Made by a program: the position numbers and the translations under genes
Notes under the pieces: generated by a model
What the model was told of the DNA's origin: nothing
Seen by the model: only the letters and a program-made list of their open reading frames with translations
Database searches by the model: none
Shown here: piece by piece, positions 2-31,508 of the stretch
How the letters are laid out: the number at the start of each line of letters is the position of its first letter
How positions within the stretch are numbered: the first letter of the stretch is position 1
Source: Methylocystis sp. B8
GTDB taxonomy: Bacteria > Pseudomonadota > Alphaproteobacteria > Rhizobiales > Beijerinckiaceae
Length of the DNA: 64,000 nucleotides
Assembly: GCF_005771425.1 (NCBI RefSeq)
Contig: NZ_VBTZ01000006.1
Span: 32,024 to 96,023, forward strand
Reading direction: 5' to 3'

Positions 2-3000
2 CAGACGAGCTTTACGACCTATACGATGAACCATGCGGCGGTGAGCGGGTCGCGCTGCGACTCGTGCCACAACGGGTCGTATACGTCGCAAGGCACGAAG
101 GGGGCGTTGGGTTCGGCGTCCTATGCCGGGCATGTGGCGACGGCGGGCCGCGATTGCGGAACCTGCCACACCAAGGCGGCGCCCGGCTTCACGACCTGGG
201 CGGGCGCGACGTATGCGCATTCGCCGTCCGACACGAATTGCTCGAGCTGCCACAACGGGACGACGGCGACCGGCAAGACGACGCCGCCGCACATCCCGGT
301 GGCGGCGAGCGTGCAGTGTTCGAACTGCCACTCGAATACGGCGACGAGCTTTACGACCTATACGATGAACCATGCGGCGGTGAGCGGGTCGCGCTGCGAC
401 TCGTGCCACAACGGGTCGTATACGTCGCAAGGCACGAAGGGGGCGTTGGGTTCGGCGTCCTATGCCGGGCATGTGGCGACGGCGGGCCGCGATTGCGGAA
501 CCTGCCACACCAAGGCGGCGCCCGGCTTCACGACCTGGGCGGGCGCGACGTATGCGCATTCGCCGTCCGACACGAATTGCTCGAGCTGCCACAACGGGAC
601 GACGGCGACCGGCAAGACGACGCCGCCGCACATCCCGGTGGCGGCGAGCGTGCAGTGTTCGAACTGCCACTCGAATACGGCGACGAGCTTTACGACCTAT
701 ACGATGAACCATGCGGCGGTGAGCGGGTCGCGCTGCGACTCGTGCCACAACGGGTCGTATACGTCGCAAGGCACGAAGGGGGCGTTGGGCACCGCTTCTT
801 TCCCAAGTCATGTTCCGACGAACGGCAAGGACTGCGTCGTTTGCCATGCGTCTGCGAGCACTGGAGGCTATGTGAGTTGGTCAGGCGGGACCTACACGCA
901 TGCGGCGACGGATACGAATTGCATCAGTTGCCATAATGGGTCCACCGCGCAAGGGATGACCACGCCGCCGCACATACCGACCGGAACGATCCAATGCAGC
1001 GGCTGCCACAAGAGTTCGTCGGCAAGCTTCACAACGGCTACGATGAATCATACCGTCGTGACTTCAATTCGCTGTGATAGCTGCCATAACGGATCCTACA
1101 GGAGCCAAGGCGCCCAAGGGAAGCCAGGGGACCATCCGAACACAACGATTGATTGCGGCTGCTGCCACACAAGCACGTCGGACTGGGACCCGCGAAAATC
1201 TCCGGGCACCTGCACGACGACGGCCAAGAGCCTTCTACCAATCCGTGGCGCCGTGCCGAACCTGAGGTCGGTCCTTGGGGCGCTCACTGGTCAGACGCCG
1301 GCGCCGTTCACGCGTGGTTCACCACTTGGCCCAACGACGCTGACGCCGTCGCCGTTGCAACCTTCGACCGGAACGCCGGCCACTGCGCCCACGACCGCGC
1401 CCGTGACAATGGCTCCGCCCATAGCAATGCGTCCGACCACCTCAGGAATCGTCATGCCGAACATCATCGGTATGAGGTCATCGGCGGAAGGATCGAGATT
1501 CGATCATCTGACGGCGAAGGGCCCCTGCGCCGCCTGCCACGACGGCAGAACCGCGATGGGCAAACCACCGAGGCATATTCCGACGACGGCGGCGTGCGAC
1601 GCCTGCCACAAGAGCACGGTGACGTTTGGGGGCGCCCGTTTCGATCACGCGGCTATCGCGGCGTCTTGCGCGAGTTGCCACGATGGCCTGAAGGCGACGG
1701 GCAAGCCGGCGAAGCATGTTGCGACGACGGCGCCCTGCGAAACCTGCCACAAGAGCACGGTGACGTTCGGCGGCGCCATCTTCGATCACACTGGCGCGAC
1801 GGCGCCTTGCGCGAGTTGCCACGATGGCGTGAAGGCGACGGGCAAGCCGGCGAAGCATGTTGCGACGACGGCGCCTTGCGACACCTGTCACAAGAGCACG
1901 AAGACGTTCGGGGGCGCCCGCTTCGATCACGCGGCTATCGCGGCGCCTTGCGCGAGTTGCCACGATGGCTTGAAGGCGACGGGCAAGCCGGCGAAGCATG
2001 TTGCGACGACGGCGCCCTGCGAAACCTGTCACAAGAGCACGAAGACGTTTGGCGGCGCCATCTTCGATCACACGGGCGCGACGGCGCCTTGCGCGAGTTG
2101 CCACGACGGCATGAAGGCGACGGGCAAGCCGGCGAAGCATGTTGCGACGACGGCGCCTTGCGAAACCTGTCACAAGAGCACGAAGACGTTCGGGGGCGCC
2201 CGCTTCGATCACGCGGCTATCATGGCGCCTTGCGCGAGCTGCCACGATGGGATCAAGGCTCCGGGCAAGCCGGCGAAGCATATTGCGACGACGGCGCCTT
2301 GCGACACATGTCACAAGAGCACGGTGACGTTCGGGGGCGCCCGCTTCGATCACACGGGCGCGACGGCGCCCTGCGCGAGTTGCCACGATGGCATGAAGGC
2401 GACGGGCAAGCCGGCGAAGCATGTTGCGACGACGGCGCCTTGCGACACATGTCACAAGAGCACGGTGACGTTCGGGGGCGCCCGCTTCGATCACACGGGC
2501 GCGACGGCGCCTTGCGCGAGTTGCCACGATGGCATGAAGGCGACGGGCAAGCCGCCGAAGCATGTTACGACGACGGCGCCTTGCGACACATGTCACAAGA
2601 GCACGAAGACGTTCGGGGGCGCCCGTTTCGATCACGCGGCTATCACGGCGTCTTGCGCGAGTTGCCACGACGGCATGAAGGCGACGGGCAAGCCGCCGAA
2701 GCATGTTACGACGACGGCGCCTTGCGACGCCTGCCACAAGAGCACGGTGACGTTCGGGGGCGCCCGTTTCGATCACGCGGCTATCACGGCGCCTTGCGCG
2801 AGTTGCCACGACGGCATGAAGGCGACGGGCAAGCCGCCGAAGCATGTTACGACGACGGCGCCTTGCGACGCCTGCCACAAGAGCACGGTGACGTTCGGGG
2901 GCGCCCGTTTCGATCACGCGGCTATCACGGCGCCTTGCGCGAGTTGCCACGACGGCATGAAGGCGACGGGCAAACCGGCGAAGCATGTTGTAACGACGGC

Positions 3001-3076
3001 GGCGTGCGACGCCTGCCACGAGAGCACGGTGACGTTCGACATCGTTCGGCCGAGCTATCGCGGTCGAGGAATGTGA
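2..3076 (+). CDS. Giant multihaem c-type cytochrome, 5' end outside the window
   Basis: The reading frame is open from the left edge, so the N-terminus and export signal are missing. The visible part is about 1,025 residues with 36 CxxCH haem c sites. The first block (to about nt 1180) has 14 motifs in a 113-residue repeat. The second (about nt 1492-3040) has 11 units of 47 residues with two motifs each. A Pro/Thr-rich linker without CxxCH (nt 1190-1490) joins them. The architecture resembles doubled-CxxCH and cytochrome c3-like families that carry electrons across or outside the outer membrane. The protein needs export and Ccm-dependent haem ligation, and ccmF, ccmG, ccmH, ccmI and hemA lie within 15 kb. 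The short tail after the last CxxCH contains no membrane anchor. Function as an extracellular electron conduit is inference; the multihaem nature is directly visible. Confidence 0.9.
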   Translation, partial: QTSFTTYTMNHAAVSGSRCDSCHNGSYTSQGTKGALGSASYAGHVATAGRDCGTCHTKAAPGFTTWAGATYAHSPSDTNCSSCHNGTTATGKTTPPHIPVAASVQCSNCHSNTATSFTTYTMNHAAVSGSRCDSCHNGSYTSQGTKGALGSASYAGHVATAGRDCGTCHTKAAPGFTTWAGATYAHSPSDTNCSSCHNGTTATGKTTPPHIPVAASVQCSNCHSNTATSFTTYTMNHAAVSGSRCDSCHNGSYTSQGTKGALGTASFPSHVPTNGKDCVVCHASASTGGYVSWSGGTYTHAATDTNCISCHNGSTAQGMTTPPHIPTGTIQCSGCHKSSSASFTTATMNHTVVTSIRCDSCHNGSYRSQGAQGKPGDHPNTTIDCGCCHTSTSDWDPRKSPGTCTTTAKSLLPIRGAVPNLRSVLGALTGQTPAPFTRGSPLGPTTLTPSPLQPSTGTPATAPTTAPVTMAPPIAMRPTTSGIVMPNIIGMRSSAEGSRFDHLTAKGPCAACHDGRTAMGKPPRHIPTTAACDACHKSTVTFGGARFDHAAIAASCASCHDGLKATGKPAKHVATTAPCETCHKSTVTFGGAIFDHTGATAPCASCHDGVKATGKPAKHVATTAPCDTCHKSTKTFGGARFDHAAIAAPCASCHDGLKATGKPAKHVATTAPCETCHKSTKTFGGAIFDHTGATAPCASCHDGMKATGKPAKHVATTAPCETCHKSTKTFGGARFDHAAIMAPCASCHDGIKAPGKPAKHIATTAPCDTCHKSTVTFGGARFDHTGATAPCASCHDGMKATGKPAKHVATTAPCDTCHKSTVTFGGARFDHTGATAPCASCHDGMKATGKPPKHVTTTAPCDTCHKSTKTFGGARFDHAAITASCASCHDGMKATGKPPKHVTTTAPCDACHKSTVTFGGARFDHAAITAPCASCHDGMKATGKPPKHVTTTAPCDACHKSTVTFGGARFDHAAITAPCASCHDGMKATGKPAKHVVTTAACDACHESTVTFDIVRPSYRGRGM
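26..789. repeat. Perfect 339-bp tandem repeat within the cytochrome gene
   Basis: Units start at 26, 365 and 704 with exactly 339 bp (113 codons) between them. The first two units are full and appear identical, and the third matches until about 789 and then diverges. Each unit encodes four CxxCH motifs. Identity including silent positions points to recent duplication or gene conversion. Sequence before position 26 also matches the end of a unit, so more copies may lie to the left. Confidence 0.95.
1492..3040. repeat. Eleven tandem 141-bp units encoding two haem sites each
   Basis: A 47-residue unit (start FDH, then CxSCHDG, then CxxCHKST) recurs eleven times with a 141-bp period; for example equivalent Cys codons lie at 1667 and 1808. 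Two subtypes occur, one with FDHAAI and one with FDHTGA. They alternate in the first part and become near-identical towards the end, as expected from unequal crossing-over. Confidence 0.93.
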
Positions 3077-3543
3077 TGTTCATCATGCATATTTCGGAGT
3101 GTGCTTACTCCGGTAACTGCGCGAGCGGTCATTCAATGAACGCCGCATAGTCGTTGCTGAAGACGCAATAAATCTTTTCAACTCGCGCCGCGACGAACCG
3201 CCTATGTTTAAGCTACAATTCAGCCTAATGCCCCAATTTTGCATTACAAAAAATCGCCGGCATCGAGCTTGATTCGAGCGTCGGCGCCTGGGAGTGCGTC
3301 TCCCAATTTTCATCGTCCCAATCGTGCTGTTTAGGGCCGCCGCGCGACGGTCAGCGAAGTTCATTCTGCTTAACATCGTCATCGAGAATGCGCGTCATGA
3401 AACGAATCTGAATCATCATGAAACGAAGCTGAATTTGATGATGAAGAAATCGAGCTTTCGACGAATGGGAGTCACATTTGCGTCCACAAACGCTTGTGTT
3501 TGGTTAGTGCGTACAAGGTGCTAATTCGATCCTAAGGGGGCGG
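3077..3543. other. Intergenic region without a recognisable gene
   Basis: This 467-bp stretch separates the cytochrome from the next gene. A six-base-pair inverted repeat (CGGAGT/ACTCCG, about 3098-3115) lies just after the cytochrome stop but lacks a T-run. A strong ribosome binding site (AAGGGGG) ends at about 3540, ahead of the next ATG. No coding sequence is convincing here. Confidence 0.5.
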
Positions 3544-6500
3544 ATGCATATAAGCGGATTTCATCGTCGGCTTCTCGCGCCGCTTGCCCCTTTCGTTCTC
3601 TTGGCGACGACGCTGGCGGCGAATTTGTCGTACGCAGAGCCCGTCATTGACCAACTTGCTTCTGGCGCGCGGGTAAGTGCGACGAACGGCTGCGCTTTGT
3701 TGATGGTGTATTTTCATGTTCGCGTTCGCTATATCGGCCACTTCCCACAACAACACGGCGAAGAGCTTCGAATTTCGCTGCAGCCCATTGACCCCTCACT
3801 GCTCGGGCAATTACGGCAGGTGCGGCGTGAAGGCGTCCTAGTCGACGACGCAAGTCTTGCGGGCATACAGGCCGTCACTGTGACTCTTGACGACGCTGCC
3901 GCCGTCGGCCCGACTTTGCGAATTCAATTCAATCGCCCGGTCACCTATGACGTCGGGCAGTTTGGGAGTTTTGACAGCATTGCCGTAGCGCTTCCACGGC
4001 CTGGCTCTTCGGCGACCTGCAAGGTCAGCGACTTTGCGAATTCCAATGCGGTTTATCCCAACGGGGCGGCGAGAGATACTACGCCGACGGCTTTTTCTAA
4101 CCGCTCGAAACAAGATGCGGGGGGTAGCGTTTCGGCAGCGAACATGAAGTTCATTGAGGCGTCGATGGATGAAGCGCGCTACGCGATCAAGAATGGCCGC
4201 TACAGTGAGGCGATCGCGCTATTGCAGAAAGTTCTGAAATTTCCTGAGAACCGATATAGCGCCGATGCGCAGGAAATGCTGGGTGAGACGAGGCAGAGGG
4301 CCGGTCAAATTGCGCAGGCGCGCGCGGACTTTGAAGACTATCTGCGGCGGTATCCGAACGGAGATGGAACGGCGAGAGTCATGCAGCGCCTTGGGAGGCT
4401 CTCCGGTGGGGGCAATGTAACGCCTTCGAAAGCGGACGGAAGCGTGGGGGCGGAACCACGGAGGGACTTGGGCGGCATTGCGGACCGTAAGGATCTATCG
4501 ACTTGGTCAATGTCCGGGAGCATCTCAAGCTTCTATATTCGGGACGACAGTTATAACACTCTGAAAGACATCTCGATCGCTCCAAACCCAATCGCGGATC
4601 CCGATGCTCACCGTCTCCATCAAGATACGTTCCTAACGAATTTTGACCTTTATGGAACGATCAATAGTGATCAGCTCAAGACCAAAATTAAGATCGCCGG
4701 CTCCGACGAGCATCGCCTCCAACCGGATGTGCCCGACACGGATCGCTATGGCATATCGACCGCCTATATCGAAACGACGTTGAAGGAAGCAGACGTTACA
4801 GCGCGCGTTGGCCGGCAGACGCGCAATACGGGCGGCGTGATCGGCCGTTTTGACGGCGGCGTCGTGAGCTGGCAGGCCAATGACATGTTCCGCCTGAACG
4901 CCTTGGGTGGCGCCACGAACTGGAGCCGATACGATGCTCCTTTCAAGGATGGCCGATATCTTTACGGCGCGAGCATTGATATCTCCAAAGTTGTCGACGG
5001 CCTGGACGCAAGCGTATTCGCTATTCAGCAAAATGATCGGTGGCTACTAGATCGACGCGCGGTCGGCGCCGAGTTTCGATATTTCAATAACAATAAAACC
5101 GCGCTCGGGATGATTGACTACGACGTTCACTTTCAACGTCTGAACGCAGCGGTGTTGTCCGGCTCTTGGACGTTCGAGGACAAATCGGTGCTATCTGGGA
5201 CAATCGACTATCGGAGAACTCCCTATTTATCGAGTTGGAATGCGCTTCAGGGACAACCCTTTCTTACGCTTTTTGATATGCTGAAGTTCAATACTCAGGA
5301 CGAAATCAGGCGCTACGCGATCGATCGCACGCCGGTATTTCAATTCGCAACGGCCAGCTATTCACGACCGCTCAACGACACCTTTCAAGTCAATGTGGAT
5401 GCAACCGTCACGCGGTTGAGCGGCACTGCGCCCTCGGGAGGGGTTGACGGCATCCTGCCAAGCGGCACGGAATACTACTTTTCGGGTCAGCTTCTTGGCA
5501 CGAGCGTTTTTAGGCCGGGCGATATATTTTCGGGAGCCATGCGCTATGCAAATCTCGCCGATTCGCACGTCTACTTCGCTGATCTGAACTTAAGTTATCC
5601 CTGGAACGACGATATTCGAATCAGTCCGCGGTTCCGTGCCGGCTATCGCGATGGCAAGTATATTCCGCTTAAAGAAACGACGGTCCTTCCTTCGCTCCTG
5701 ATTGACTATAGGTGGATGAAACATCTGTGGCTGGAGTCGGAAATTGGCTCCAAATGGATCTGGAGCGACGCTGCGGGAATCAGGTCGACGACTAAGAATT
5801 TGTACGTAACACTTGGCTTGCGTTCTGATTTCTCGACCGATGGAATGTATCGGTGCGCGGGACGACTGGCGCCGTGCTCCGGCGTGCTGTTCAGCGCTCC
5901 ACAGCCCGACGCGCAGGCAGTTCACGATCGACTCTACTATAGCGATTCGCCGCCTAATTCGGAAGCTCCGCCTGTCACGCCAACGTTTGTCTTGGAAGGC
6001 GGCGCTAGGTACTGGCGAAACCGAGGCGACAACCGCTACGATTATTTTGCCGACCAAACGTCAACGACGAGGGTGTCCAGACTTTCCTATGCGAATTTGA
6101 CTTCCAACTCCGGCGAATTCTTTTTCCGCGCCGACGCGCGCCGTGGGCTGATCCGCAATATCTTCCTAAAAGGCTATATAGGCGCCGGTAGGATTGGCGG
6201 CGGCAGGCTGTATGATGAAGATTTCCCGCCGTTCGTGAACCTCTATTCAAAGACAGTAAGCGATAGCTCGGGCAAGTTGCGCTACGGCAGTATCGATATC
6301 GGCTACAATATCTATACGGACCAGCTGTTCCGCCTCGGCGCATTTGTAGGCTTTCTCAGTTGGTTTGAGGCCGTCAATGCGAACGGCTGCACCCAGGTCG
6401 GTTTGAACTTCGCGTGCATTCCGCCTTTGCCGCGCTCGCTGCGGCTTATCACAGAGCGGGACCGGTGGAGCTCATTTCGTATTGGCGCAATAGTCGATTT

Positions 6501-6828
6501 CAATGTCACCGAACGGTTGAGATGGACAGGCGAAATAGCGCTGACTTCCACATCGCAACGGGCGCAGGATACGCACTACTTCACGTTTGGCGATGATCCC
6601 GCCAAAGGCCGCGGAGGCGGATTCCAGGCGGAAACGGCGATGAAATATCAAGTAACCGACAGTCTAGGTATTGGCGTAGGTTTACGGTGGTGGCATTTCA
6701 ACACTCACGCTGTCGACTTATATGGCCAGCTTCTAAAATATCGCACCGATCGGTACGGTGTATTCGCACAGGCAAGCTATCGGGTGAACTGGGGAGATTT
6801 CCTCATCGATCAGAACGACACGCCTTAG
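3544..6828 (+). CDS. Secreted TPR/outer-membrane beta-barrel protein
   Basis: A 1,094-residue protein. It starts with a signal peptide (hydrophobic stretch at about residues 10-30, probable cut after SYA). An AMIN-like beta domain follows at about 75-160. One or two TPR-type helices lie at about 200-285 (repeated AxxxYxEAI and ARxDFxxYLxRYPN patterns). The remaining roughly 750 residues alternate short amphipathic strands rich in Tyr, Trp, Gly and Asp, as in large outer-membrane barrels. The layout recalls TPR-porin fusions such as BcsC and PgaA, and also cytochrome-partner barrels of the MtrB/PioB type, but I recognise no family signature. It lies 467 bp after the multihaem cytochrome on the same strand, so a role as barrel or secretion partner of the cytochrome is a reasonable inference. 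The ATG is supported by an AAGGGGG site. Confidence 0.7.
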   Translation: MHISGFHRRLLAPLAPFVLLATTLAANLSYAEPVIDQLASGARVSATNGCALLMVYFHVRVRYIGHFPQQHGEELRISLQPIDPSLLGQLRQVRREGVLVDDASLAGIQAVTVTLDDAAAVGPTLRIQFNRPVTYDVGQFGSFDSIAVALPRPGSSATCKVSDFANSNAVYPNGAARDTTPTAFSNRSKQDAGGSVSAANMKFIEASMDEARYAIKNGRYSEAIALLQKVLKFPENRYSADAQEMLGETRQRAGQIAQARADFEDYLRRYPNGDGTARVMQRLGRLSGGGNVTPSKADGSVGAEPRRDLGGIADRKDLSTWSMSGSISSFYIRDDSYNTLKDISIAPNPIADPDAHRLHQDTFLTNFDLYGTINSDQLKTKIKIAGSDEHRLQPDVPDTDRYGISTAYIETTLKEADVTARVGRQTRNTGGVIGRFDGGVVSWQANDMFRLNALGGATNWSRYDAPFKDGRYLYGASIDISKVVDGLDASVFAIQQNDRWLLDRRAVGAEFRYFNNNKTALGMIDYDVHFQRLNAAVLSGSWTFEDKSVLSGTIDYRRTPYLSSWNALQGQPFLTLFDMLKFNTQDEIRRYAIDRTPVFQFATASYSRPLNDTFQVNVDATVTRLSGTAPSGGVDGILPSGTEYYFSGQLLGTSVFRPGDIFSGAMRYANLADSHVYFADLNLSYPWNDDIRISPRFRAGYRDGKYIPLKETTVLPSLLIDYRWMKHLWLESEIGSKWIWSDAAGIRSTTKNLYVTLGLRSDFSTDGMYRCAGRLAPCSGVLFSAPQPDAQAVHDRLYYSDSPPNSEAPPVTPTFVLEGGARYWRNRGDNRYDYFADQTSTTRVSRLSYANLTSNSGEFFFRADARRGLIRNIFLKGYIGAGRIGGGRLYDEDFPPFVNLYSKTVSDSSGKLRYGSIDIGYNIYTDQLFRLGAFVGFLSWFEAVNANGCTQVGLNFACIPPLPRSLRLITERDRWSSFRIGAIVDFNVTERLRWTGEIALTSTSQRAQDTHYFTFGDDPAKGRGGGFQAETAMKYQVTDSLGIGVGLRWWHFNTHAVDLYGQLLKYRTDRYGVFAQASYRVNWGDFLIDQNDTP

Positions 6829-6843
6829 CCGAGGAGCGCATAT

Positions 6844-7626
6844 TTATAGTCGCGTCCGCGCTCTAGGCTCGGGATTCATAACCAGTAGCCCTGCGGCAAG
6901 GCAGACTGCAGCGAGGAATTTGGCGGCGAGGCGATCGTATCGCGGCGTGATCCTGCGAAAGTCTTTCAGGACCGAACATTCGCTCGATGGCGTCGTGGTT
7001 GCGATAGAGGAAAGGCGAGAAGCAGTTCTTCCACTTGCGATTGGTTTTGGGCGGGATGTTGGGCATGGCCCCTCCGGCCCCGACCTGTCGGTGGATGGCG
7101 TCGCTGTCGTAACCCCCGTCGGCGTGCAGGATCGAGGACGGCGGCCATTGCTCCAGCAAGAGCGCGTCAGCCGTTCAGTCGGCGACGTGTCCGCCGGTCA
7201 GCAAGAATGCGATCGGACGACAGTCGACATCGGTCAGCACATGGATTTTCGTGGTTCGTCCGCCGCGCGAGCGACAAATCGCCTGATTGTGTTCCCCCCT
7301 TTTGATTCCGGATGCGCAGCGATGCGCCTTGACGGCCGAACTATCGATGAGAACTTGTGCGGGCGGGCCGCCCGCCGATGCGAGCGCACGGAAAATGTCG
7401 ACCCGCATGCCTTTCACCGACCAGACGAAACGATTGTAGAGCGTTTTGCGTGGCCCATAGACTTCGGACGCATCGATCCGGCGTCCGCGCCGGACTTAAG
7501 CACATGCACGATCCAACTGATGACCCTGCGGTCGTCGACGCGTGGCTTGCCCCGAGTACCGGTCGGCAGAAGTGGCGCGAGCCAGGCGAACTGGTCATCT
7601 GTGAGCCAATAGAAATTGCGAATCAT
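6844..7626 (-). pseudogene. Degenerate IS5-family (IS427-type) transposase
   Basis: The minus strand carries an IS5/IS427-like DDE transposase of about 260 codons. Recognisable parts in order are an N-terminus reading MIRNFYWLTDDQFAWL, the segment DSSAVKAHR, HADGGYDSDAI and the segment ending NHDAIERMFG. It is broken three times. A frameshift occurs after HVLKSG (near 7500), an in-frame TGA replaces a codon at 7175-7177 after GGHVAD, and a second frameshift follows ERMFG (near 6960). The remnant sits between the barrel gene and the response regulator. Terminal inverted repeats could not be defined with confidence. Confidence 0.88.
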
Positions 7627-7694
7627 AAGCGGCTTCCTGTCGGAAGCCCTGAATCACAAATTCGAAACGATGAAAATCTTTATGGGTCCGGCGC

Positions 7695-8348
7695 CTAGCC
7701 CATTCGATATCCCATGCCACGCACCGTGCGGATGGTATTTCGGCCGAGTTTTTTGCGTAAGCGAGCGATATAGACCTCGACGGTATTCGAATCACGCATC
7801 GTATCAATCGAGTAAATGTGGTCCATGAGTTCGTTCTGTGAAACGATCCGTCCTGGCCGGTACATCAGATAATTGAGAATTCGAAATTCAAGAGCCGTTA
7901 GTTCGACGTTGGTGCCGGCCTTTCGAACCAAGCCGCAATTCGCATCAATTTCGATGTCAGTATGTAATAAAATCGAATTGGACTTGCCACAGGAGCGCCG
8001 CAGCAACGATCGCAGCCGAGCAATCAGTTCTTCTAGCTCGAAGGGTTTTTCGATATATTCATCCGCGCCGGCGTTTAGGCCCGTAACCCGATCTCTCCAG
8101 CCGACTCTTGCTGAGATAATCATCACGGGGAAATCCTGACCGGATGCCCGCCATCGCCTCAGCACCTCAAGGCCCGGTAGTTTTGGAAGACCAAGATCAA
8201 GAATTGCTGCGTCATAAGAATGGCTTTCACCCAACGCCCATCCTTTCTCTCCGTCAGCGGCGAGATCGATGACGAAGCCCGCTTCGACGAGAACTCCTTT
8301 AATCCGGTCAGCCAGGGTGGCGTTGTCTTCGATCAACAGAATACGAAT
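7695..8348 (-). CDS. OmpR/PhoB-type response regulator, probable ATT start
   Basis: A 217-residue two-domain regulator. The receiver domain (1-115) has the acidic pair ED, phospho-acceptor Asp in LDLGLPK, Ser in IISA and Lys in EKPF. The winged-helix DNA-binding domain (125-217) ends in the usual TVRGMGYR. The shortest start is TTG at 8336, which removes the conserved RILL beta strand. Twelve bases upstream, ATT at 8348 restores the canonical N-terminus and sits five bases after AGGGAGG. I therefore place the start there. It lies 80 bp downstream of ccmI on the same strand and may share the hemA-ccmH-ccmI transcript. No histidine kinase is present; the dead IS lies immediately after it. Its targets are unknown. 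Confidence 0.85.
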   Translation of the reverse strand: MRILLIEDNATLADRIKGVLVEAGFVIDLAADGEKGWALGESHSYDAAILDLGLPKLPGLEVLRRWRASGQDFPVMIISARVGWRDRVTGLNAGADEYIEKPFELEELIARLRSLLRRSCGKSNSILLHTDIEIDANCGLVRKAGTNVELTALEFRILNYLMYRPGRIVSQNELMDHIYSIDTMRDSNTVEVYIARLRKKLGRNTIRTVRGMGYRMG

Positions 8349-8428
8349 ATTTGCCTCCCTTTAGAACTAAGGAATTGCGGGTGACAGGGGGCGCGAAGGC
8401 GAACGATCGCAACCCAAGCGTTGTGGGC

Positions 8429-9745
8429 TTATTGTCTTAATCCGAGCTCTTGTGCTGTCGTCACGATGCGTTTGCGTTCTGCTGTATCCTCTTCAAAAAC
8501 CTTGAGCGCTTTTTCGAGCGTCTGTTGTGCCTTGTTCTTGTCGCCCAGAACGGACCGTGATCGGATAAGCTTGATCCAACCATCAACGTCGCGAGGCGAT
8601 TGTTCCAATCGATCTTCAAGTGAGTCGACCATGCGTTGAATCATTGCAGCGCGATCGGATGGCGCCAGCGTCTCGGCGCTGCGAATGTCTTCTGGCCGCG
8701 GCCCTCTATTGGTCGTCGACTCGGGGGGCATCGACGGTTCCGTGCGTCCCGAGATTGTTGTGCCAAAGGAGCTCTTAGGATCGCTCATAGCAGTTGGCGT
8801 TTCGCCGACACGATCGCTGTCCTTTGCGCCTCCGATTTTTTGTTTGAGTTCCAGCGACAGGGGATCGTTGGGATCGAGTTCGCCAAGCAGGTCGTTCCAT
8901 TGCTTAAGTGCGGCGCTCTTGTCTCCGCCTTGGTCAATGGCCAGTGCCTGAAAATATCGGGCGCGCAGGTCTTTAGGATGGAGTTTGATGGTCTCCTCCG
9001 TCGACTCCTTGGCTTCGGGCGTGACCACACCGTTCGCCGCACGGATCAAGGCATCCGTGCGGGCATTGCGATAGTCGGCTGAGTTGGGATTAAGTTCGAT
9101 CGCTCTGGCATAGGCGGCGGCCGCCTCAGTGAAATGATCCGTGCTGTAATAGGACCAACCGAGTGTCCGCCAACCTTCTGAGTCTTTAGGATTGCGCTGC
9201 AGGCGCGTCACAAGCCTTTGGATCATCTCCTCCACCGGCGGGAGCGGCGGTTCAGCACGCTTGCTTGGGCCTCCAGTCGGCGCTGCGGCGGAAGGCGGTA
9301 AAGGAATGTTCACTTCCGCCACTTTGTTCGCTGGTTTTTCGACCAGCCTGGTCACTGTAGGCTCCAGCGTGGCGAACGACGTCGCCGCATACGGCTCAAG
9401 GTTGGCGGTCAGCGCGAACAAACCGACAGCGCCGAACACCACGACGCCTGCGACGCCGATCGCTGCGAATGTCCGTTCGCCACTTGAGAGCATGGGCAGT
9501 GCGGAGTCATCGGTTTCTCTGGCGGCCAGCATCCTGCGCTTGATTTCGGTTTTGGCCGTTTCCGCCTGCGAGGCGTCGATCAGTCCCAGCGCGGCCTCGT
9601 TATCGACCTCCTTCAACTGATCCCGATAGACGGCGACGTCGCTCGAGAGGCCGTTTTGACGCCAGTCAAGGCGCCGAATAAAGGGCGCCGATACAAAAAC
9701 CGCCGCGATCGAAGTCATGACCGTCAAGATAAACCACAGGATCAT
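8429..9745 (-). CDS. ccmI: Cytochrome c maturation protein CcmI (CycH)
   Basis: A 438-residue membrane protein. Two N-terminal helices (residues 1-22 and about 95-115) flank a cytoplasmic loop containing the family pattern VYRDQLKEVD. The periplasmic part holds TPR repeats at about 175-290 and again near the C-terminus. In this family the first part binds CcmF and CcmH, and the TPR domain holds the C-terminus of apocytochrome c for haem ligation. Its ATG overlaps the stop of ccmH, so the two are translationally coupled, and AGAGGG precedes the start. Confidence is high from the N-terminal signature, domain order and neighbour. Confidence 0.92.
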   Translation of the reverse strand: MILWFILTVMTSIAAVFVSAPFIRRLDWRQNGLSSDVAVYRDQLKEVDNEAALGLIDASQAETAKTEIKRRMLAARETDDSALPMLSSGERTFAAIGVAGVVVFGAVGLFALTANLEPYAATSFATLEPTVTRLVEKPANKVAEVNIPLPPSAAAPTGGPSKRAEPPLPPVEEMIQRLVTRLQRNPKDSEGWRTLGWSYYSTDHFTEAAAAYARAIELNPNSADYRNARTDALIRAANGVVTPEAKESTEETIKLHPKDLRARYFQALAIDQGGDKSAALKQWNDLLGELDPNDPLSLELKQKIGGAKDSDRVGETPTAMSDPKSSFGTTISGRTEPSMPPESTTNRGPRPEDIRSAETLAPSDRAAMIQRMVDSLEDRLEQSPRDVDGWIKLIRSRSVLGDKNKAQQTLEKALKVFEEDTAERKRIVTTAQELGLRQ

Positions 9746-10200
9746 TTTGACCCTCTTTTATTGAGGAGCGCATCGAGGCGCGCTTGTTCACTTGCTGATA
9801 GTTGTGGCGCTTCGCCAATTGGCTGAATTACGGCGCGCCGGCGGAGATAGCGGGAAAAGCTGATGAGCGCGAACAAGAGGAACAGGACAGGCCCAGCCCA
9901 AAGCGGAAGCGTGTTCAATTGCATCGGTGGTTTGAGCAGAACGAAATTGCCGTATCGTGCGACGATGTAATCAACAGCCTGTCGATCGCTGTCGCCGGCG
10001 GTAAGGCGTTCGCGCAGCAGGACTCTCAGATCATGCGCGAGCGGCGCATTCGAGTCATCGATGCTCTGGTTTTGGCAGACGACGCAGCGCAAGTCCTGGC
10101 TAAGAACTCGCGCGCGCCCTTCGAGCGCTGGATCGCTCAGCATTTCACCGGGCGTGACCGCATGCCCCGGTGCGACACCGAGGCCAAGCAGAATGAACAT
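9742..10200 (-). CDS. ccmH: Cytochrome c maturation thiol oxidoreductase CcmH (CycL)
   Basis: From ATG 10200 this is a 152-residue protein with an N-terminal signal or anchor, the CcmH redox motif LRCVVCQNQS at about 37-46, and a C-terminal membrane helix at about 98-115. CcmH keeps the cysteines of apocytochrome CxxCH motifs reduced for haem attachment. The frame is open without a stop far upstream. ATG 10422, just after hemA, would add about 74 hydrophilic residues. Neither start has a clear ribosome binding site. I chose 10200 because it puts the hydrophobic segment at the N-terminus as is usual in the family. The gene overlaps ccmI by four bases. Confidence 0.85.
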   Translation of the reverse strand: MFILLGLGVAPGHAVTPGEMLSDPALEGRARVLSQDLRCVVCQNQSIDDSNAPLAHDLRVLLRERLTAGDSDRQAVDYIVARYGNFVLLKPPMQLNTLPLWAGPVLFLLFALISFSRYLRRRAVIQPIGEAPQLSASEQARLDALLNKRGSK

Positions 10201-10430
10201 GGCGATGAAAAAGAAATGAAGCGCTTGGTTTTGGTGGTACCGGTCCAGAGTGAGCTTCCGACGGCGTTGAATCTCCTCATGCCGTCGAACTAACTGTCCG
10301 CAACGCGTATTCGCTAGGCCGAACATTGACAAGAGAAAGGACAGGTCATCGGTCGGATGCGCCTGTTTGGCTATTTTTGCCTGGCGATCTCGCACCCTCG
10401 CCAACTCGGCCACGTTGCTCATTGCTTCGC

Positions 10431-11717
10431 TCACTGCGCAGCGAGTTTGATCTCGGGATAGGTGCAGCGCTTTTCGCTTTTCTCGTCGACGTGCAGATCC
10501 ACTGGCTGCTCGACAAAGGGGATGCCGAGGGTCTGCCAGACGTCGACCGCCGCCTCGACCAGTTGCGCGATATGCTCTTGCGTGTGGCGCGGAGTCGGCG
10601 TGAGACGCAGGCATTCCGAGCCCCGCGCCACGGTCGGATAATTGATCGGTTGAATATAGATGTGATGACGCAGCAGAAGCATGTCGCTCGCCGCCTTGCA
10701 AAGTTCGGCGTTGCGCACCATCAGCGGCACGATATGCGAATCGTTTTCCAGCACGGGCAAGCCCGCTGCCCCGAGGGCGTGCTTGGTGATACAGGCGGCG
10801 CCTTGATGCGCAGCGCGTAGATCGGGGCGTGCCTTCAAGAGCCGCACGGCCGCGCAGGAGGCGGCCGCGACCGCCGGCGGCAGAGCTGTCGTGAAGATGA
10901 ACGAAGAGGAGTAGCTGCGAATGGCGTCAATCACTATGGCGTCGCCCGCGACATAGCCGCCGAGCGTGCCGAAGCCCTTGGCCAGCGTGCCCTCGACGAC
11001 ATCGATCTGGTCCATTACGCCGGCCTGCTCGCAGATGCCGGCCCCGTGCGGACCATACATGCCAACCGCGTGAACCTCGTCGATATAGGTCATCGCGCGA
11101 TAACGCTTGGCGAGCGCGACGATCTCGGCAACCGGCGCGATGTTGCCGTTCATGGAATAGAGGCTCTCGAACAATACGAGCTTAGGACGTGGACCAGCGG
11201 CCTTCAGCAATTCCTCAAGATGGCCGAGATCGTTATGGCGGAAGATTTTCTTCTCGGCGCGCGAACGCTTGACGCCCTCGATTATCGAGTTGTGGTTGGA
11301 CGCGTCAGATAGAACGAGACAATTAGGCATAAGATCGGCAATCGTGGAAATTGCCGCCAGATTGGAAATCCACCCCGACGTAAAAACGAGGGCGCGCTCT
11401 TTGCGGTGCAGCTCGGCGAGCTCACGCTCCAGTTCGACGATAGCGTGGCTGGTGCCGGAAATATTGCGGGTGCCGCCCGCGCCGGCGCCGACCTTGGCAG
11501 CCGTCTCGATCATCGCGGCGATGACGTCCGGATGCTGCCCCATGCCAAGATAGTCGTTGGAGCACCAAATCGTGACGTGCTGCTTGCCGCCGTCAGGCCG
11601 ATGCCAGACGGCATGCGGAAAGGACTGCGCATCGCGCTCGAGGTGGACGAAGACCCGATACCGACGTTCTTCGTGCAGACGCTCGACGGCAGATTTAAAA
11701 AAACGCCGATAGTCCAT
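10431..11717 (-). CDS. hemA: 5-aminolevulinate synthase
   Basis: A 428-residue PLP-dependent alpha-oxoamine synthase that condenses glycine and succinyl-CoA to 5-aminolevulinate, the first step of haem synthesis in Alphaproteobacteria. Visible features are the start MDYRRFF, the substrate segment [21 protein letters not shown], the cofactor-binding [12 protein letters not shown], and the Schiff-base lysine in [15 protein letters not shown] 11717 is preceded by AAGGA at good spacing and matches the usual family N-terminus; a longer frame to 11825 has no such support. ccmH and ccmI follow on the same strand, tying haem supply to cytochrome c maturation. It may be a second hemA copy, which this window cannot show. 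Confidence 0.93.
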
Positions 11718-11849
11718 GCGACAATCCTTCATTCTTCGATGCGGTCCAATTGCCGAACGCCAGTCCACGTGAGAGCGCTTGGCAAAACAGACACGCTTCT
11801 TTGGAAGGTTTCTTAAATAGGCCAATCTTGGCGGAATGCTGAAAGAGCT

Positions 11850-11890
11850 GAATGGAACCTTAAATCATCGGTGCCATTCGACTTTTTTTT
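11850..11890 (+). terminator. Stem-loop followed by eight T on the plus strand
   Basis: The arms GAATGGAACC and GGTGCCATTC pair over ten positions with one mismatch and a ten-base loop. GAC and TTTTTTTT follow. This has the form of a rho-independent terminator reading rightwards, but no plus-strand gene precedes it. It could protect the hemA upstream region from readthrough, end an unseen RNA, or be a leftover. Confidence 0.45.
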
Positions 11891-11962
11891 CGCCCCCGAG
11901 AGCTTCTTCCCTGTCGCATTTCTGCCGCAAGCAAAGCGCGCGGCTCTTGGCGATGGCTGCGT

Positions 11963-12310
11963 TCAATTCGGTGCGTTGTTCACGATTTCGCAAATGTACG
12001 CTGAAATTGCTTTGCCGACCGCGTCTTCAATTTGGTGCGCGCAGTAACCCGTTTCTCCATAGTAACGCGCGACAAACAGTCCATTCTTGTCACGCACTTG
12101 TTTGTCGCCCTTTAAAGACTCAAACCAACTTCTCGCTGTGTTGCCAAAACAGCTATACGACACTTGATCTCCGGCCTTTTTCACTTCGTTGTCTTCGATG
12201 GCTTCGCGCAAACACTTGTTGTAAGACGACATGGAAGGATCCTGAAGTGATAGTTGCGCCACTGCCGCTGAGGACGACAGGAGAAAAGCGATTAATCCGA
12301 GACTGCGCAT
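11963..12310 (-). CDS. Small exported protein of unknown function
   Basis: A 115-residue protein with a clear Sec signal peptide (LIAFLLSSSAAVAQ, cut near residue 18). The mature part of about 95 residues has four cysteines, which suggests two disulfides. AGAGAGGAA lies seven bases before ATG 12310; longer in-frame starts (12334, 12400) would bury the signal peptide. I do not recognise a family. It lies upstream of hemA on the same strand, about 245 bp away, so a link with the cytochrome genes is only positional. Confidence 0.65.
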   Translation of the reverse strand: MRSLGLIAFLLSSSAAVAQLSLQDPSMSSYNKCLREAIEDNEVKKAGDQVSYSCFGNTARSWFESLKGDKQVRDKNGLFVARYYGETGYCAHQIEDAVGKAISAYICEIVNNAPN

Positions 12311-12470
12311 GCGTTGTTCCTCTCTAGTTTTCATGATCACAAACAATTTGGCCTTATTTGGATATCGCGCTGGGTGCCGGGGTATTTGCCTTGCGCACAA
12401 AAATATGAGACTCGGCGCAAAACGTTTGTCGTCCGCGAATAGCTAACCGGCCGATCCAGAAAAATTGGGC

Positions 12471-12695
12471 TCACGAACAAGGCGTTGAGCGCGTCAGACG
12501 CTTGAGCATGATGCGGATGATGGCGAGTTTGAGGAAGGCGGCGACGGTGGTCGCGTAGCATTCAGAGTCGGGCATGAGGCCGCGTTTGGCGAGCGGAATC
12601 ATAGGGGCGATCAAGGCCCATTCGTCGTCGATCAAATCACAAGGGTAACGGAAGCTGCGACGATCGGCGGCGTCGCCATGTTCCAGCTTCCACAT
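12471..12695 (-). pseudogene. Internally deleted IS5-family transposase
   Basis: The reading frame begins like a common IS5-group transposase (MWKLEHGDAADRR, then DDEWALIAPMIPLAKRG). After about 35 residues it jumps to the C-terminal end of the same family (ATTVAAFLKLAIIRIMLKRL). The central catalytic part, roughly 200 residues in intact members, is missing, yet the frame is kept through the junction. It cannot be an active transposase. It lies between the cytochrome-maturation genes on the minus strand and those on the plus strand. An in-frame ATG at 12722 adds nine unlikely residues. Confidence 0.8.
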
Positions 12696-12918
12696 CGGCA
12701 AACCCCCATCCGAACCATCCATTTCGCAAGGGGATCTCGACCGACTTTTTCACCTCAACCTCTTTCAGGATCGGCTCTAAGGCAAATTGGAAACCGCGTT
12801 GTTAGCGCTGTCTCAACTAACTGCAAACCAGCGAGTGTTTGAAAAGATTATGGCCACCATTAGCTCGACATAATTTTATGACGTGAGTGCGCCTCGGCTG
12901 CGACTAATAGGCACATTC

Positions 12919-14901
12919 ATGATGGCTCAAGTCGGATATTTCGCGCTTCTCTTGGCGCTGCTCATTTCGCTGATGCAAGCGGTTGCGCCATTTGTTCCTC
13001 TAAAACGCAAGGATCCCGTGATCGCTGTTTTCGTCGATCAAGCAGCCTTCGGGCAGCTTGTTTTTGTCATCATTGCTTTTGCGAGTCTGACCTATGCCTT
13101 CGTCATTTCGGATTTCTCGCTCTCGGTTGTCGCCGCTAATTCGCACACCACTAAGCCGCTCCTCTACAAGGTAACGGGAGTCTGGGGCAATCATGAAGGC
13201 TCTATGTTGCTATGGGTCCTGATATTGGCGGCTTTCGGCGCAGCGGTGGCGCTATTTGGCGACAACATTCCGGATCGCCTACGAAGCAAGACGCTCGGGG
13301 TTCACGCGATGATAGCGGTCGGCTTTCTCGCATTCATTATAATGACGTCCAATCCATTCGCTACGCTCGCGGAACCGCCCGCAGACGGCAATGGTCTCAA
13401 CCCCATACTGCAAGACCCAGGCTTGGCGATTCACCCGCCGTTTCTCTACTTGGGCTATGTCGGATTTTCGATGGCTTTTTCCTTCTCCGTTGCAGCTTTG
13501 ATTGAAGGACGAGTGGATGCGTGTTGGGCGCGCTGGGTCAGGCCATGGGTGCTCGCAGCGTGGTGTTTTCTCACCATCGGCATCGCACTTGGCAGCGCTT
13601 GGGCTTATTACACGCTCGGATGGGGTGGCTGGTGGTTTTGGGACCCAGTCGAAAATGCATCGCTAATGCCTTGGCTCGCTGGGACTGCTCTCCTACATTC
13701 AGCGCTGGTCGTCGAACGCCGAAGCACGCTCGTCAGCTGGACGATCCTACTTGGCATTCTCACCTTTTCACTGAGCCTCATCGGCACATTTTTGGTGCGG
13801 TCCGGCGTACTTACTAGCGTGCACGCCTTCGCGCAGGATCCCTCGCGCGGAGAATTCGTTTTGCTGCTGATCTTTCTTTCAACCGGAGGTTCGCTTGCGC
13901 TCTATGCCATTCGCGCGCCGAAACTCAAGACAGGCTCAGCTTTCTCCATAATCAGTCGCGAGAGCGGGCTGGTTCTCAATAATGTGTTGTTGAGCGCCGT
14001 CGCCTTCACGGTCCTTCTGGGAACTTTTTATCCGTTGGTCATTGATATGATAGGCGGCGACAAAATCTCAGTTGGGCCGCCATACTACGCCTTGACGTTC
14101 GTGCCGATCGCAACGCCTCTTCTACTGGTCATGGCGCTTGGTCCGGCGCTCAAGTGGAAACGCGACGATCTGCGCGCAGCGTTCAGCCGATTGAAACTCG
14201 CGGCGATCGGAGGCGTCGTCGGCGCGATCGTCGTTATGGGACTTACTTTCGGTCACAATATCCTGACGGCTTTTTTTATGGCCGTCGCCATCTGGATCAT
14301 CGTCGGGTCGATACTGCTTTTGGCGCAGCGCGTGCGTCTTGGCTCGGCGCCGTTCTCAACCTCGGTCAAGCTGATTGGGACGACGCCGCGCGCCTTTTAC
14401 GGACTCGTCATCGCTCACGCTGGGATCGGCGTTCTTGTCGCCGGCATCGCTGGCATGTCGACCTGGGCGACGGAGAAAATCGATCTCATGCGGCCCGGCC
14501 AGGCCATCGAACTTTCTGGTTACGAGTTGCGATTGCGCTCGATCGACGATGTCCAGGGCCCGAATTATGAAGCCGAACGAGGAAGCTTCGAGATCACCCG
14601 CAATGGGCGACTGGTGACGCAACTGTATAGCGAGAGACGCTTCTATCCGGTGCGGCAACAGCAGACGACCGCAGCAGGCATCCGCACCAACCTCATCTCA
14701 AACCTCTATGTGGCGTTGGGCGAATCCGATGGCGCCGGCCGCTGGACCGTGCGTTTTTACTATCATCCGTTTATGCCACTCGTTTGGATCGGCGCGTTTA
14801 CCATGGCGTTCGGCGGCTTCGTATCCTTATCTGATCGCCGGTTTCGCGTGGGCGCGCCGAAGCGTTCCGCACGCCTACCGGCTATGGCCCCAGCGCAATA
14901 G
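12919..14901 (+). CDS. ccmF: Cytochrome c haem lyase subunit CcmF (CycK)
   Basis: A polytopic inner-membrane protein of 660 residues with about 15 hydrophobic segments. It contains the tryptophan-rich haem-handling WWD motif WGGWWFWDPVEN (about 245-256), the segment GVWGNHEGSMLLW and conserved histidines such as AIHPPFLY. CcmF takes haem from CcmE and attaches it to apocytochrome c with CcmH and CcmI. The frame can start at GTG 12883, but the usual family N-terminus (M-AQVGYFALLLAL) begins at ATG 12919. ccmG follows ten bases after the stop. No ccmA, ccmB, ccmC, ccmD or ccmE is in this window, so the pathway depends on genes elsewhere. Confidence 0.94.
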   Translation: MMAQVGYFALLLALLISLMQAVAPFVPLKRKDPVIAVFVDQAAFGQLVFVIIAFASLTYAFVISDFSLSVVAANSHTTKPLLYKVTGVWGNHEGSMLLWVLILAAFGAAVALFGDNIPDRLRSKTLGVHAMIAVGFLAFIIMTSNPFATLAEPPADGNGLNPILQDPGLAIHPPFLYLGYVGFSMAFSFSVAALIEGRVDACWARWVRPWVLAAWCFLTIGIALGSAWAYYTLGWGGWWFWDPVENASLMPWLAGTALLHSALVVERRSTLVSWTILLGILTFSLSLIGTFLVRSGVLTSVHAFAQDPSRGEFVLLLIFLSTGGSLALYAIRAPKLKTGSAFSIISRESGLVLNNVLLSAVAFTVLLGTFYPLVIDMIGGDKISVGPPYYALTFVPIATPLLLVMALGPALKWKRDDLRAAFSRLKLAAIGGVVGAIVVMGLTFGHNILTAFFMAVAIWIIVGSILLLAQRVRLGSAPFSTSVKLIGTTPRAFYGLVIAHAGIGVLVAGIAGMSTWATEKIDLMRPGQAIELSGYELRLRSIDDVQGPNYEAERGSFEITRNGRLVTQLYSERRFYPVRQQQTTAAGIRTNLISNLYVALGESDGAGRWTVRFYYHPFMPLVWIGAFTMAFGGFVSLSDRRFRVGAPKRSARLPAMAPAQ

Positions 14902-14910
14902 GAGGCCACT

Positions 14911-15450
14911 ATGTCGCGTTTGACCTTCTTCGCGCCCTTGGCTGCATTTGTCCTCCTCCTGACTGGGCTTATGTTCAGCCTCAAGAACGATCCCCACAAC
15001 ATGCCATCGATGCTGATCGACAAGGCCGCGCCGACTTTCGTGCTCGCCTCGCTTGCCGATGGCGGCGATTCCGGCCTTTCGAACGAAGACTTGAAGGGTG
15101 AGCCGTTGCTGCTCAATGTTTTTGCGTCCTGGTGTCCAGCTTGTCGCGTCGAGCACCCTTTTCTGATGCGATTGGCGAACAACCAGGATTTCAAGATTGT
15201 CGGAATCGACTGGAAGGACAATCGGCAAAAGGGCCAACGCTGGCTTGCTCAATATCAGAGCCCATACACCCACGTCGGCTTCGATGAAAGCGGTCGCGTC
15301 GGCATCGACTTCGGCGTGACCGGCGTACCAGAAACTTTCGTCATCGATCGTGACGGGCGCGTGCGCTACCGTCACGCAGGCCCTCTCACCGAGGAGGTTT
15401 GGAGAGATGTTTTTGAGCCGCTCTTAATGCATTTGCGGAGCGCTCCATGA
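14911..15450 (+). CDS. ccmG: Thioredoxin-like thiol:disulfide protein CcmG (DsbE)
   Basis: A 179-residue membrane-anchored periplasmic thioredoxin. One N-terminal helix (residues 5-25) is followed by a thioredoxin fold with the active site WCPAC at about 77-81 and the cis-proline segment TGVPETFVIDRDG. CcmG reduces CcmH or apocytochrome c before haem attachment. AGGAGG lies at good spacing before the ATG. It is paired with ccmF, and the operon ends here. Confidence 0.93.
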   Translation: MSRLTFFAPLAAFVLLLTGLMFSLKNDPHNMPSMLIDKAAPTFVLASLADGGDSGLSNEDLKGEPLLLNVFASWCPACRVEHPFLMRLANNQDFKIVGIDWKDNRQKGQRWLAQYQSPYTHVGFDESGRVGIDFGVTGVPETFVIDRDGRVRYRHAGPLTEEVWRDVFEPLLMHLRSAP

Positions 15451-16459: not shown

Positions 16460-16593
16460 CCTAACGATCGTAGGGTGGTTTTTTGAAAAATGTCTGAATT
16501 ATGTCTGAGCTAATTGACCAGAAAAAAGTATTAGCGGTATCTCATATCAAGAACATGATTTCGATTTCATGCTGCACCAGTAAAGGCGGAAAT

Positions 16594-19017: not shown

Positions 19018-19032
19018 CGGCGGGAGCGGACG

Positions 19033-19320
19033 ATGAATCTCTCACCCGCAGCCGTTACGATCGCAGCCCTTGTCGCCATCGTAGCGGGCGCCGCCTGCTT
19101 CTATCTCGGCGCGCCCAATCAGCGATGGCTGCCGCGGCGATTGCCGTCATGGCCGAGCCGCGTCGCTTGCGCGGCGCTGCTGTTTCTCGGCGTTTTCATT
19201 TGGAGTCAGGCAGTTCAGCTGTCGACCGCGATTTTCGCCACTCTCGCCTTGACCATGCTTCTCTTCATCATTTTTCCGTGGCTGGGGGCGCTGCGCACTG
19301 TCATCAGGAATGCGCCATGA
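19033..19320 (+). CDS. Small three-helix membrane protein of an iron-uptake locus
   Basis: A 95-residue protein with three hydrophobic segments (about 5-27, 44-62 and 66-88). It lies 15 bases after the receptor gene and overlaps the next gene by four bases (ATGA). Small membrane proteins of this size regularly occur between TonB-dependent receptors and PepSY reductases, for example the DUF3325 and DUF3649 groups. I cannot assign one of these with certainty. A role with the PepSY protein in iron release is inference. Confidence 0.7.
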   Translation: MNLSPAAVTIAALVAIVAGAACFYLGAPNQRWLPRRLPSWPSRVACAALLFLGVFIWSQAVQLSTAIFATLALTMLLFIIFPWLGALRTVIRNAP

Positions 19321-19601: not shown

Positions 19602-19615
19602 CGGGACAACGAACG

Positions 19616-22581: not shown

Positions 22582-22584
22582 GTT

Positions 22585-22800: not shown

Positions 22801-22855
22801 CCCCGCTGATCTGCGATTTTTCATAAGACGGCATTTTCTTTCGAAGGGAACGACA

Positions 22856-30043: not shown

Positions 30044-30046
30044 GCC

Positions 30047-31432: not shown

Positions 31433-31444
31433 CAAGAAAGCTTG

Positions 31445-31460: not shown

Positions 31461-31508
31461 GAAAGCGCCTTTGAATGAAGAAGAAACCGATAGCGACAGA
31501 GGTGCGAC

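Follow-up and report, generated by a model that had tools for sequence, protein, structure and literature searches.

We have analysed a 64,000-nucleotide stretch of DNA from Methylocystis sp. B8 (the window; C23:32024-96023 within a 3.41-Mb genome of 26 contigs, here G000) whose first 15 kb bring together genes for a multihaem cytochrome, an outer-membrane barrel protein, a second set of cytochrome c maturation (ccm) genes and a second hemA. The sequence-only reading of this stretch had proposed that a cytochrome, a TPR/barrel protein, a response regulator, hemA, ccmH, ccmI, ccmF and ccmG form a functional unit that makes and assembles a haem-dense conduit, and all of these genes are indeed found where it placed them (Table 1). 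Its genes do lie within 15 kb, but the locus itself is larger, as the cytochrome and four further proteins extend upstream of the window; a 309-aa membrane protein, predicted to be b-type (WX3HX13H at 101 and 284, SGXXG at 142), and a Sel1/ankyrin-type protein are found there.

Table 1. Features of the conduit locus (window positions unless marked L008)
Feature	Position	Strand	Basis
Multihaem cytochrome, 5' part, signal-peptide-like start	begins L008:19254, 747 bases upstream of window		
Multihaem cytochrome, extracellular-type, 3' part, 36 CxxCH	2..3076	+	reading frame, CxxCH count
Tandem array, 339-bp unit (113 residues, four haems), 2.3 assembled copies, identical; broken by assembly gap	4..789	+	
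Second array, 141-bp unit (47 residues, two haems), 10.7 copies, 90% alike	1535..3038	+	
PCC3-type outer-membrane barrel protein with TPR	3544..6828	+	profiles and AlphaFold2
C-terminal extension of the barrel protein	5854..6825	+	comparison with other PCC3 barrels
OmpR-type response regulator	7695..8336	-	profile match
CcmI, second copy	8429..9745	-	
CcmH, second copy, with intact LRCVVCQ motif; precise start uncertain	9742..10221	-	
HemA (5-aminolevulinate synthase), second copy, with intact GTLAK motif	10431..11717	-	TIGR01821, 612 bits (cut-off 339)
Small protein, signal-peptide-like start, no Pfam/NCBIfam match	11963..12310	-	
CcmF, second copy, WWD motif	12883..14901	+	
CcmG/DsbE thioredoxin, CPAC	14911..15450	+	
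Periplasmic-type multihaem cytochrome, 18 CxxCH, 458 aa	L008:17537-18913, upstream of window		predicted location
FAD/NAD(P) oxidoreductase with two [4Fe-4S] clusters	L008:14814-16115, upstream of window		

The comparisons cover 39 genomes of the genus (the window genome and 38 relatives) and 35 named loci of the porin-cytochrome type PCC3, 23 alphaproteobacterial and 12 gammaproteobacterial, with flanks that reach 10 kb or the contig end, so that more distant genes are missed. Restricting the count to loci that show the membrane protein leaves 12 alphaproteobacterial and 5 gammaproteobacterial loci. The locus L106 ('bacterium isolate GS22') was classed as alphaproteobacterial from its CcmF, and L100 and L102 are near-duplicates. 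As PF02461 (subunit A of ammonia/methane monooxygenase) is present in 31 of the 39 genus genomes, including that of the window, its host is most likely a methanotroph.

The barrel protein combines an N-terminal beta domain, TPR repeats (residues 198-287), a barrel of about 22 strands (318-770) and an extra C-terminal part (about 771-1094). In the AlphaFold2 model (predicted template modelling score 0.47) most of residues 318-770 have a predicted local distance difference test value of 85-97, with weaker loops, and the C-terminal part stays below 50. All members of a PCC3 set are present, each with a predicted cellular location: this barrel, a many-haem repeat cytochrome, an 18-CxxCH cytochrome and a membrane protein of about 300 aa bearing the expected motifs. 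As in the PCC3 clusters of He et al. (2017; PMC5566968), a many-strand barrel and a membrane protein of about 300 aa with two WX3HX13H and one SGXXG share one neighbourhood, the periplasmic multihaem cytochrome carries 18-21 haem sites here against a median of 21 there, and the extracellular cytochrome has tandem low-complexity repeats and a low residue/haem ratio. We conclude that the upstream cytochrome, the membrane protein and the barrel are a predicted PCC3-type porin-cytochrome conduit. It would work like MtrCAB, MtoAB and PioAB, that is, as a barrel-linked cytochrome path across the outer membrane (PMC5566968), although unlike in those systems the cytochromes are not decahaem and the barrel has no match to the MtrB/PioB Pfam family at E up to 1, either in residues 1-762 or in 763-1094. 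Among the 50 matches listed there was no MtrB or other named porin-cytochrome barrel, which excludes nothing, and a search of the PDB with the barrel profile gave TPR-type matches only. Furthermore, 15 of the 17 PCC3 loci in which the membrane protein is visible also have the FAD/Fe-S protein (alpha 10/12, gamma 5/5), possibly as the cytoplasmic end of the electron path.

The locus differs from PCC3 as the four genes described in PMC5566968 in carrying also ccmF, ccmG, ccmH and ccmI, the FAD/Fe-S oxidoreductase and, in this genus, hemA, as well as in its methanotroph host, in the size of its cytochromes (see below) and in the C-terminal extension of the barrel. This extension is found in the four genus genomes that have the barrel and in L073, a Hyphomicrobiales metagenome-assembled genome (MAG), and the match of other full-length PCC3 barrels to the window protein ends between residues ~738 and ~809. 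It resembles the C-terminal part of outer-membrane beta-barrel proteins elsewhere, including those on Methylobacterium, Tardiphaga and Bradyrhizobium plasmids, and could be an anchor or a second barrel. Eight plasmid records matched the barrel, all of them through this C-terminal part only, and PCC3 barrels on plasmids were therefore discarded.

The claim of at least 36 CxxCH in the window cytochrome holds, since the frame contains 36 where 1000 shuffles of the same residues gave a mean of 0.39 and a maximum of 4. A 94-N assembly gap inside the tandem array of the 339-bp unit splits the gene, so that the 42 CxxCH counted (6 in the 5' part and 36 in the 3' part) are a minimum; the window part of the protein, some of which is lost in the gap, matches only cytochrome families. 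The corresponding genes of two relatives are far longer. In G007 a single open frame of 5918 residues with a signal-peptide-like start has 190 CxxCH, 162 of them in a main array of 40 units of 124 residues, and a 5269-residue frame of G002 has 189, of which 156 fall in 38 units of 112 residues. It could be argued that such giants are assembly artefacts of repetitive DNA, and the window copy is in fact broken by an N gap beside a 100%-identical tandem unit. However, few unit pairs are identical (3/780 in G007 and 20/703 in G002), the changes between units are mostly synonymous, with nonsynonymous/synonymous change per site against the consensus of 0.066 (G007) and 0.024 (G002), and the giant frames, on contigs of 3.9 and 4.5 Mb, are uninterrupted for 15.8 and 17.8 kb, respectively. 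In addition, L073 has 115 CxxCH up to its contig end, with neighbouring units only 72% alike. Purifying selection on repeats that are seldom identical thus argues against an artefact, which we regard as extremely improbable, and looks like the mark of translated and selected proteins.

In nine aligned three-unit stretches (one from the window and eight from L073) four CxxCH and four more His are kept per unit, and bis-His haems would therefore fit. A search of the PDB with the cytochrome sequence gave one weak match (3oue, E 5e-4). The reported maximum for PCC3 cytochromes is 85 haems (PMC5566968), against 189-190 CxxCH here; an 86-haem cytochrome has been reported (PMC9012536; PMC12133095, Desulfuromonas acetexigens), and the S-layer cytochrome of Ca. 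Methanoperedens has 113 (PMC7082337). The D. acetexigens and Ca. Methanoperedens proteins are likewise very large, but with lower counts and, in the available text of PMC12133095 and PMC7082337, no mention of a 40-fold module array. PMC11475568 gives over 100 motifs per gene neighbourhood, not per protein, and searches of an open-access library gave no per-protein count above 113.

Copies elsewhere in the genome, for which the sequence-only reading had proposed a check, were found for both hemA and ccmF. A housekeeping ccmI-ccmE-ccmF-ccmH set lies on C1, and its CcmF is 51% identical to that of the locus. The features of System I ligation are kept in the locus copies, namely the WWD motif and four conserved His of CcmF and the CxxC of both CcmH and CcmG. 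His 104, 184, 272, 314 and 512 are invariant across 10 aligned CcmFs, and the last four of these we take, from their spacing, to be the equivalents of the E. coli positions. When searched with the window CcmF, 38 of the 39 genus genomes gave a match (that of G020 being one copy in two pieces), with two copies in G000, G002, G007 and G009 only, which are exactly the four genomes carrying the barrel. Because CcmE is single in all 38 genus genomes with a match while CcmF is present in a second copy, the conduit is predicted to bring a second ligation module that shares haem delivery through CcmE. Of 19 genomes searched (G502 and those to which 18 of the 35 named loci belong) 12 had two CcmF matches, the second being partial in one case, and 7 had one. 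In a tree of 42 CcmFs, 13 conduit-type sequences form one branch (100/99) and the housekeeping CcmFs of the same genomes fall elsewhere; eight housekeeping CcmFs of the genus were included in the tree. Eleven of the 13 adjoin a barrel; those of G530 and G547 lie on other contigs than the barrel and were assigned to the group by choice, which does not include the CcmFs of L194, L196 and L186 (sphingomonads) or that of L180 (gamma). In G530, a Hyphomicrobium MAG, the conduit-type ccmFGHI (L199) and the PCC3 locus stand on different contigs. Among the loci with the membrane protein in view, ccmF, ccmG and ccmH lie beside 8/12 alphaproteobacterial and 0/5 gammaproteobacterial ones and a CcmI-like frame beside 10/12 and 2/5, respectively, while the control genes thyA, dus and cobS lie beside none of the 17.

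NrfEFG is the haem lyase of NrfA. Like this module, which is named in PMC9012536, the locus holds an extra CcmF/CcmH/CcmI-type set without its own CcmE. Its copies score below the cut-offs of TIGR03145 (NrfE; 631 against 927 bits) and TIGR03147 (NrfF; 92 against 159), and the locus CcmF, the copy scored here, passes NF007691 (NrfE-named; 463 against 394) and TIGR00353 (CcmF/NrfE; 658 against 569). One might then suppose that the second module is needed for a special haem site or geometry, as NrfE (the textbook case, named in PMC9012536) is for CxxCK, and not for size or load. The second CcmF accompanies PCC3 at any haem number from 19 to 190, and 26 alignment columns are invariant in nine conduit-linked CcmFs and different in the housekeeping copy of G000, which would suit this idea. 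The haem sites themselves, however, look ordinary: unlike the NrfEFG case, the multihaem frames of G000, G002, G007 and G009 have no CxxCK and a single Cx3CH (G007), nor is there any Cx4CH in those of G002, G007 and G009. We consider this explanation rather unlikely. Haem load as the sole reason for a second ligase was discarded as a general rule, as gammaproteobacterial loci with 39 and 51 haems do without it and alphaproteobacterial loci with 19-31 have it.

The PCC3 barrel was found in three of the 38 relatives searched (G002, G007 and G009), that is, in 4/39 genomes with that of the window. The adjacency that the earlier reading suggested checking is conserved in these three relatives, with shuffled order and orientation, and partly in other families. 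The barrel and the conduit CcmF have been inherited together: their trees share 9 of 10 splits over 13 genomes and, in a set of ten genomes, 7/7 splits against 5/7 for barrel and housekeeping CcmF, a small difference. Moreover, G547 pairs with G007 inside the genus in the barrel tree (100/100) and, more weakly, in that of the conduit CcmF (93/63, 89/90), and its housekeeping CcmF falls outside the genus, which indicates joint transfer. According to these trees the loci have probably moved horizontally. The G009 locus (L058) reads as decaying, with ccmF retained and ccmG not found by BLAST.

Three genus loci contain a hemA gene: that of G000, that of G002, at 0.3 kb from ccmF, and that of G007, at 4.0 kb from the giant gene; the window genome has another hemA outside the locus. 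The hemA tree comprises 33 copies out of 54 genus matches, namely those that belong to a locus or lie in the stretches analysed, and does not include the extra copies of G003, G021, G037, G017 and G029. In it the three locus copies stand in three places on long end branches, a single clade of them is rejected (approximately unbiased test, p 0.0039), and the seven extra hemAs of conduit-less genomes that it contains form a separate deep branch. The simple reading would be repeated capture of the genus's own hemA into the locus. All these data bear on the idea that ccmFGHI only hitch-hikes on a mobile PCC3 island, linked to it by inheritance and serving all c-type cytochromes, with hemA nearby by accident. 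The loci are patchy within the genus and probably horizontally moved, as the pairing of G547 with G007 indicates, and extra hemAs are common in the genus, all of which would suit it. Nevertheless, most of the set stays together in four species despite reshuffled order and orientation, and in other families too, CcmF is retained as one lineage over several families, and hemA is in 3/4 genus loci with apparently more than one origin, apart from the deep branch of the conduit-less extras. Mere hitch-hiking is therefore, in our opinion, quite unlikely.

Several observations weigh against a conduit with its own ligation module and haem supply. Concerning hemA, none was found in 66 kb around the G009 locus, G009 having conduit genes and a single hemA, and none lies beside the 17 named loci. 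Two or more hemAs occur in 15/39 genus genomes, 12 of which have no conduit (12 of the 35 conduit-less genomes); the link to hemA is for this reason weaker than that to ccm, and hemA copy number, with only 3 of those 15 genomes carrying the conduit, was rejected as a conduit marker. Besides, pairs of locus hemAs are not rejected as clades (p 0.056 and 0.234), and gene conversion, a rival to repeated capture, could mimic separate origins. Concerning the ligase, PCC3-adjacent CcmFs of L088 (Erythrobacter SD-21), L092 (Novosphingobium) and L090 (a gammaproteobacterium) fall outside the conduit clade; the L090 locus carries ccmF-G-H-I, and its ccmF is the sole match in that genome. Four of the 12 alphaproteobacterial loci have no ccmF within their flanks, and three of the five gammaproteobacterial loci, all without ccmF, have 39-51 haems, so that haem number alone does not demand a second ligase. 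As to the cytochromes, that of the window is incomplete in the assembly. An IS21-type element (IstB, PF01695, and a transposase; L061:16973-19350) just after the signal-peptide part of the G002 gene separates its N-terminal start from the remainder, and this copy thus looks disrupted; the insertion looks recent, since the array behind it retains strong purifying selection. In G009 a 9-CxxCH remnant is left of the cytochrome, the barrel lacks the first 200 residues, and the membrane protein is represented by a 180-aa piece. With G002 and G009, two of the four loci in the genus thus seem damaged. Finally, PCC3 is functionally unverified according to PMC12442390 and its function is left open in PMC5566968, and both PCC3 clusters of S. 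lithotrophicus ES-1 were lowered with Fe(II) (PMC8788666). On balance, the functional unit proposed by the sequence-only reading is strongly supported for its ccm part, by the match of second ccmF to barrel and the CcmF clade, and more weakly for hemA, which is in the locus in three of four cases and in this genus only. Of the three outcomes that this reading had named as refuting it, two are contradicted by the data, since the neighbourhood is conserved in relatives and neither hemA nor ccmF is single-copy.

Other features of the region are the following. The OmpR-type regulator has a 73%-identical relative adjoining the G002 conduit. The small protein at 11963-12310, which the sequence-only reading did not mention, has close relatives in the G002 and G007 loci, and in G547 a relative of 44% identity adjoins ccmF, H and I; it was rejected as an exclusive conduit marker, its relatives occurring in 22/39 genomes, mostly as distant ones (~30% identity), with close ones in three loci only. 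Between barrel and regulator, a frame on the minus strand (6863-7159) without a Pfam match looks by eye like a transposase remnant. At L008:7257-9294 a dusA-like gene adjoins an integrase-like N-terminal frame (both by eye; the latter has no Pfam match), possibly an island edge. None of the genomes G036, G024, G033, G027 and G002 contains L008:9064-13100 in full, and a comparison of the left flank with these five gave short pieces in three of them only and no island boundary. FNR/FixK-type boxes (up to one mismatch) were dropped as a sign of oxygen control, with 6 in the window against 4.5 expected and 2 in L008 against 0.8. Directly downstream of ccmG (16501-34306, plus strand) lies a catecholate-siderophore-type cluster with a TonB receptor, PepSY_TM, an enterochelin-esterase-like protein, a 2486-aa non-ribosomal peptide synthetase, a major facilitator superfamily exporter and chorismate-binding and AMP-binding enzymes. 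This cluster, the presence of hemA and the capacitor role proposed for PCC3 (PMC10734462) could suggest a locus for haem/iron stress or storage, with the cytochrome acting not as a wire but as a capacitor or haem sink. However, the barrel, the periplasmic cytochrome and the b-type membrane protein would make an electron path, and no such siderophore cluster adjoins the conduits of G002, G007, G009 or any of the 35 named loci, so that it was rejected as part of the unit; storage is in our view very unlikely.

Taken together, we think it likely that the locus encodes an electron conduit of the PCC3 type across the cell envelope, together with a haem-ligation module dedicated to it. Electrons would pass between the quinone pool and the cell exterior through the b-type inner-membrane protein, the 18- to 21-haem periplasmic cytochrome, the barrel and a very long extracellular cytochrome built from tandem four-haem modules. 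We infer that CcmF-CcmH-CcmI with CcmG act as a second haem ligase, passing haem from the shared CcmE to the conduit apocytochromes, and the extra HemA would raise the haem supply. As for direction, our favoured guess is that a hypoxic methanotroph dumps methane-derived electrons on Fe(III) or humics. Ten-haem MtrA spans ~100 angstrom (PMC5566968), and by linear scaling 190 haems would exceed 100 nm if the chain were extended. A bolder proposal, which we put forward tentatively and hold to be somewhat likelier wrong than right, is that one secreted polypeptide of ~5900 residues with ~190 haems, most of them in ~40 near-identical four-haem modules homogenised per species, is a covalent nanowire over 100 nm long in aerobic methanotrophs, which is passed from one species to another as a self-sufficient island that includes a haem ligase, and which on more than one occasion has acquired a haem-synthesis gene to cover its haem demand.

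The earlier statement that no system of this composition had been described is only partly maintained. The conduit type is known (PCC3; PMC5566968), and anaerobic methanotrophic (ANME) archaea provide an earlier example of a dedicated CcmF next to a giant cytochrome: CcmF2 adjoins MHC-B there, and special CcmFs have been proposed as possibly needed for very large apoproteins (Chadwick et al. 2022; PMC9012536). The likeness, a second CcmF lineage beside a giant cytochrome, is an analogy and we do not claim orthology: the ANME case is archaeal, with S-layer-fused cytochromes and, in the available text of PMC9012536, only CcmF of the ligation module, whereas here a bacterial barrel conduit comes with CcmF-G-H-I and HemA. 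As far as the literature searches reach, three things are new: a CcmFGHI lineage of Alphaproteobacteria that is linked to the conduit, the presence of hemA within the locus, and cytochromes with 189-190 CxxCH in a methanotroph genus. The text of PMC5566968 contains neither 'biogenesis' nor 'maturation', no word starting with 'ccm' appears in the PCC3 papers PMC12442390, PMC12016527 and PMC8788666, PMC10734462 lists CcmH among iron-oxidiser genes with no tie to PCC3 in its available parts, and a search for CcmF paralogs and multiheme cytochromes returned no PCC3 paper.

The cytochrome wires known so far are polymers of small subunits or, by the published counts found, proteins of up to 113 haems. 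If true, a single chain of 190 haems served by its own ligase would provide a sharp test of haem loading onto very long apocytochromes, and of whether a single chain carries electrons over 100 nm or more. Furthermore, ferrihydrite-dependent methane oxidation at low oxygen has been linked to Methylocystis, a genus of aerobic methanotrophs, and as the route for it c-type cytochromes and riboflavin have only been suggested (PMC10960957); the conduit locus would offer a concrete candidate for that route in the few species that carry it.

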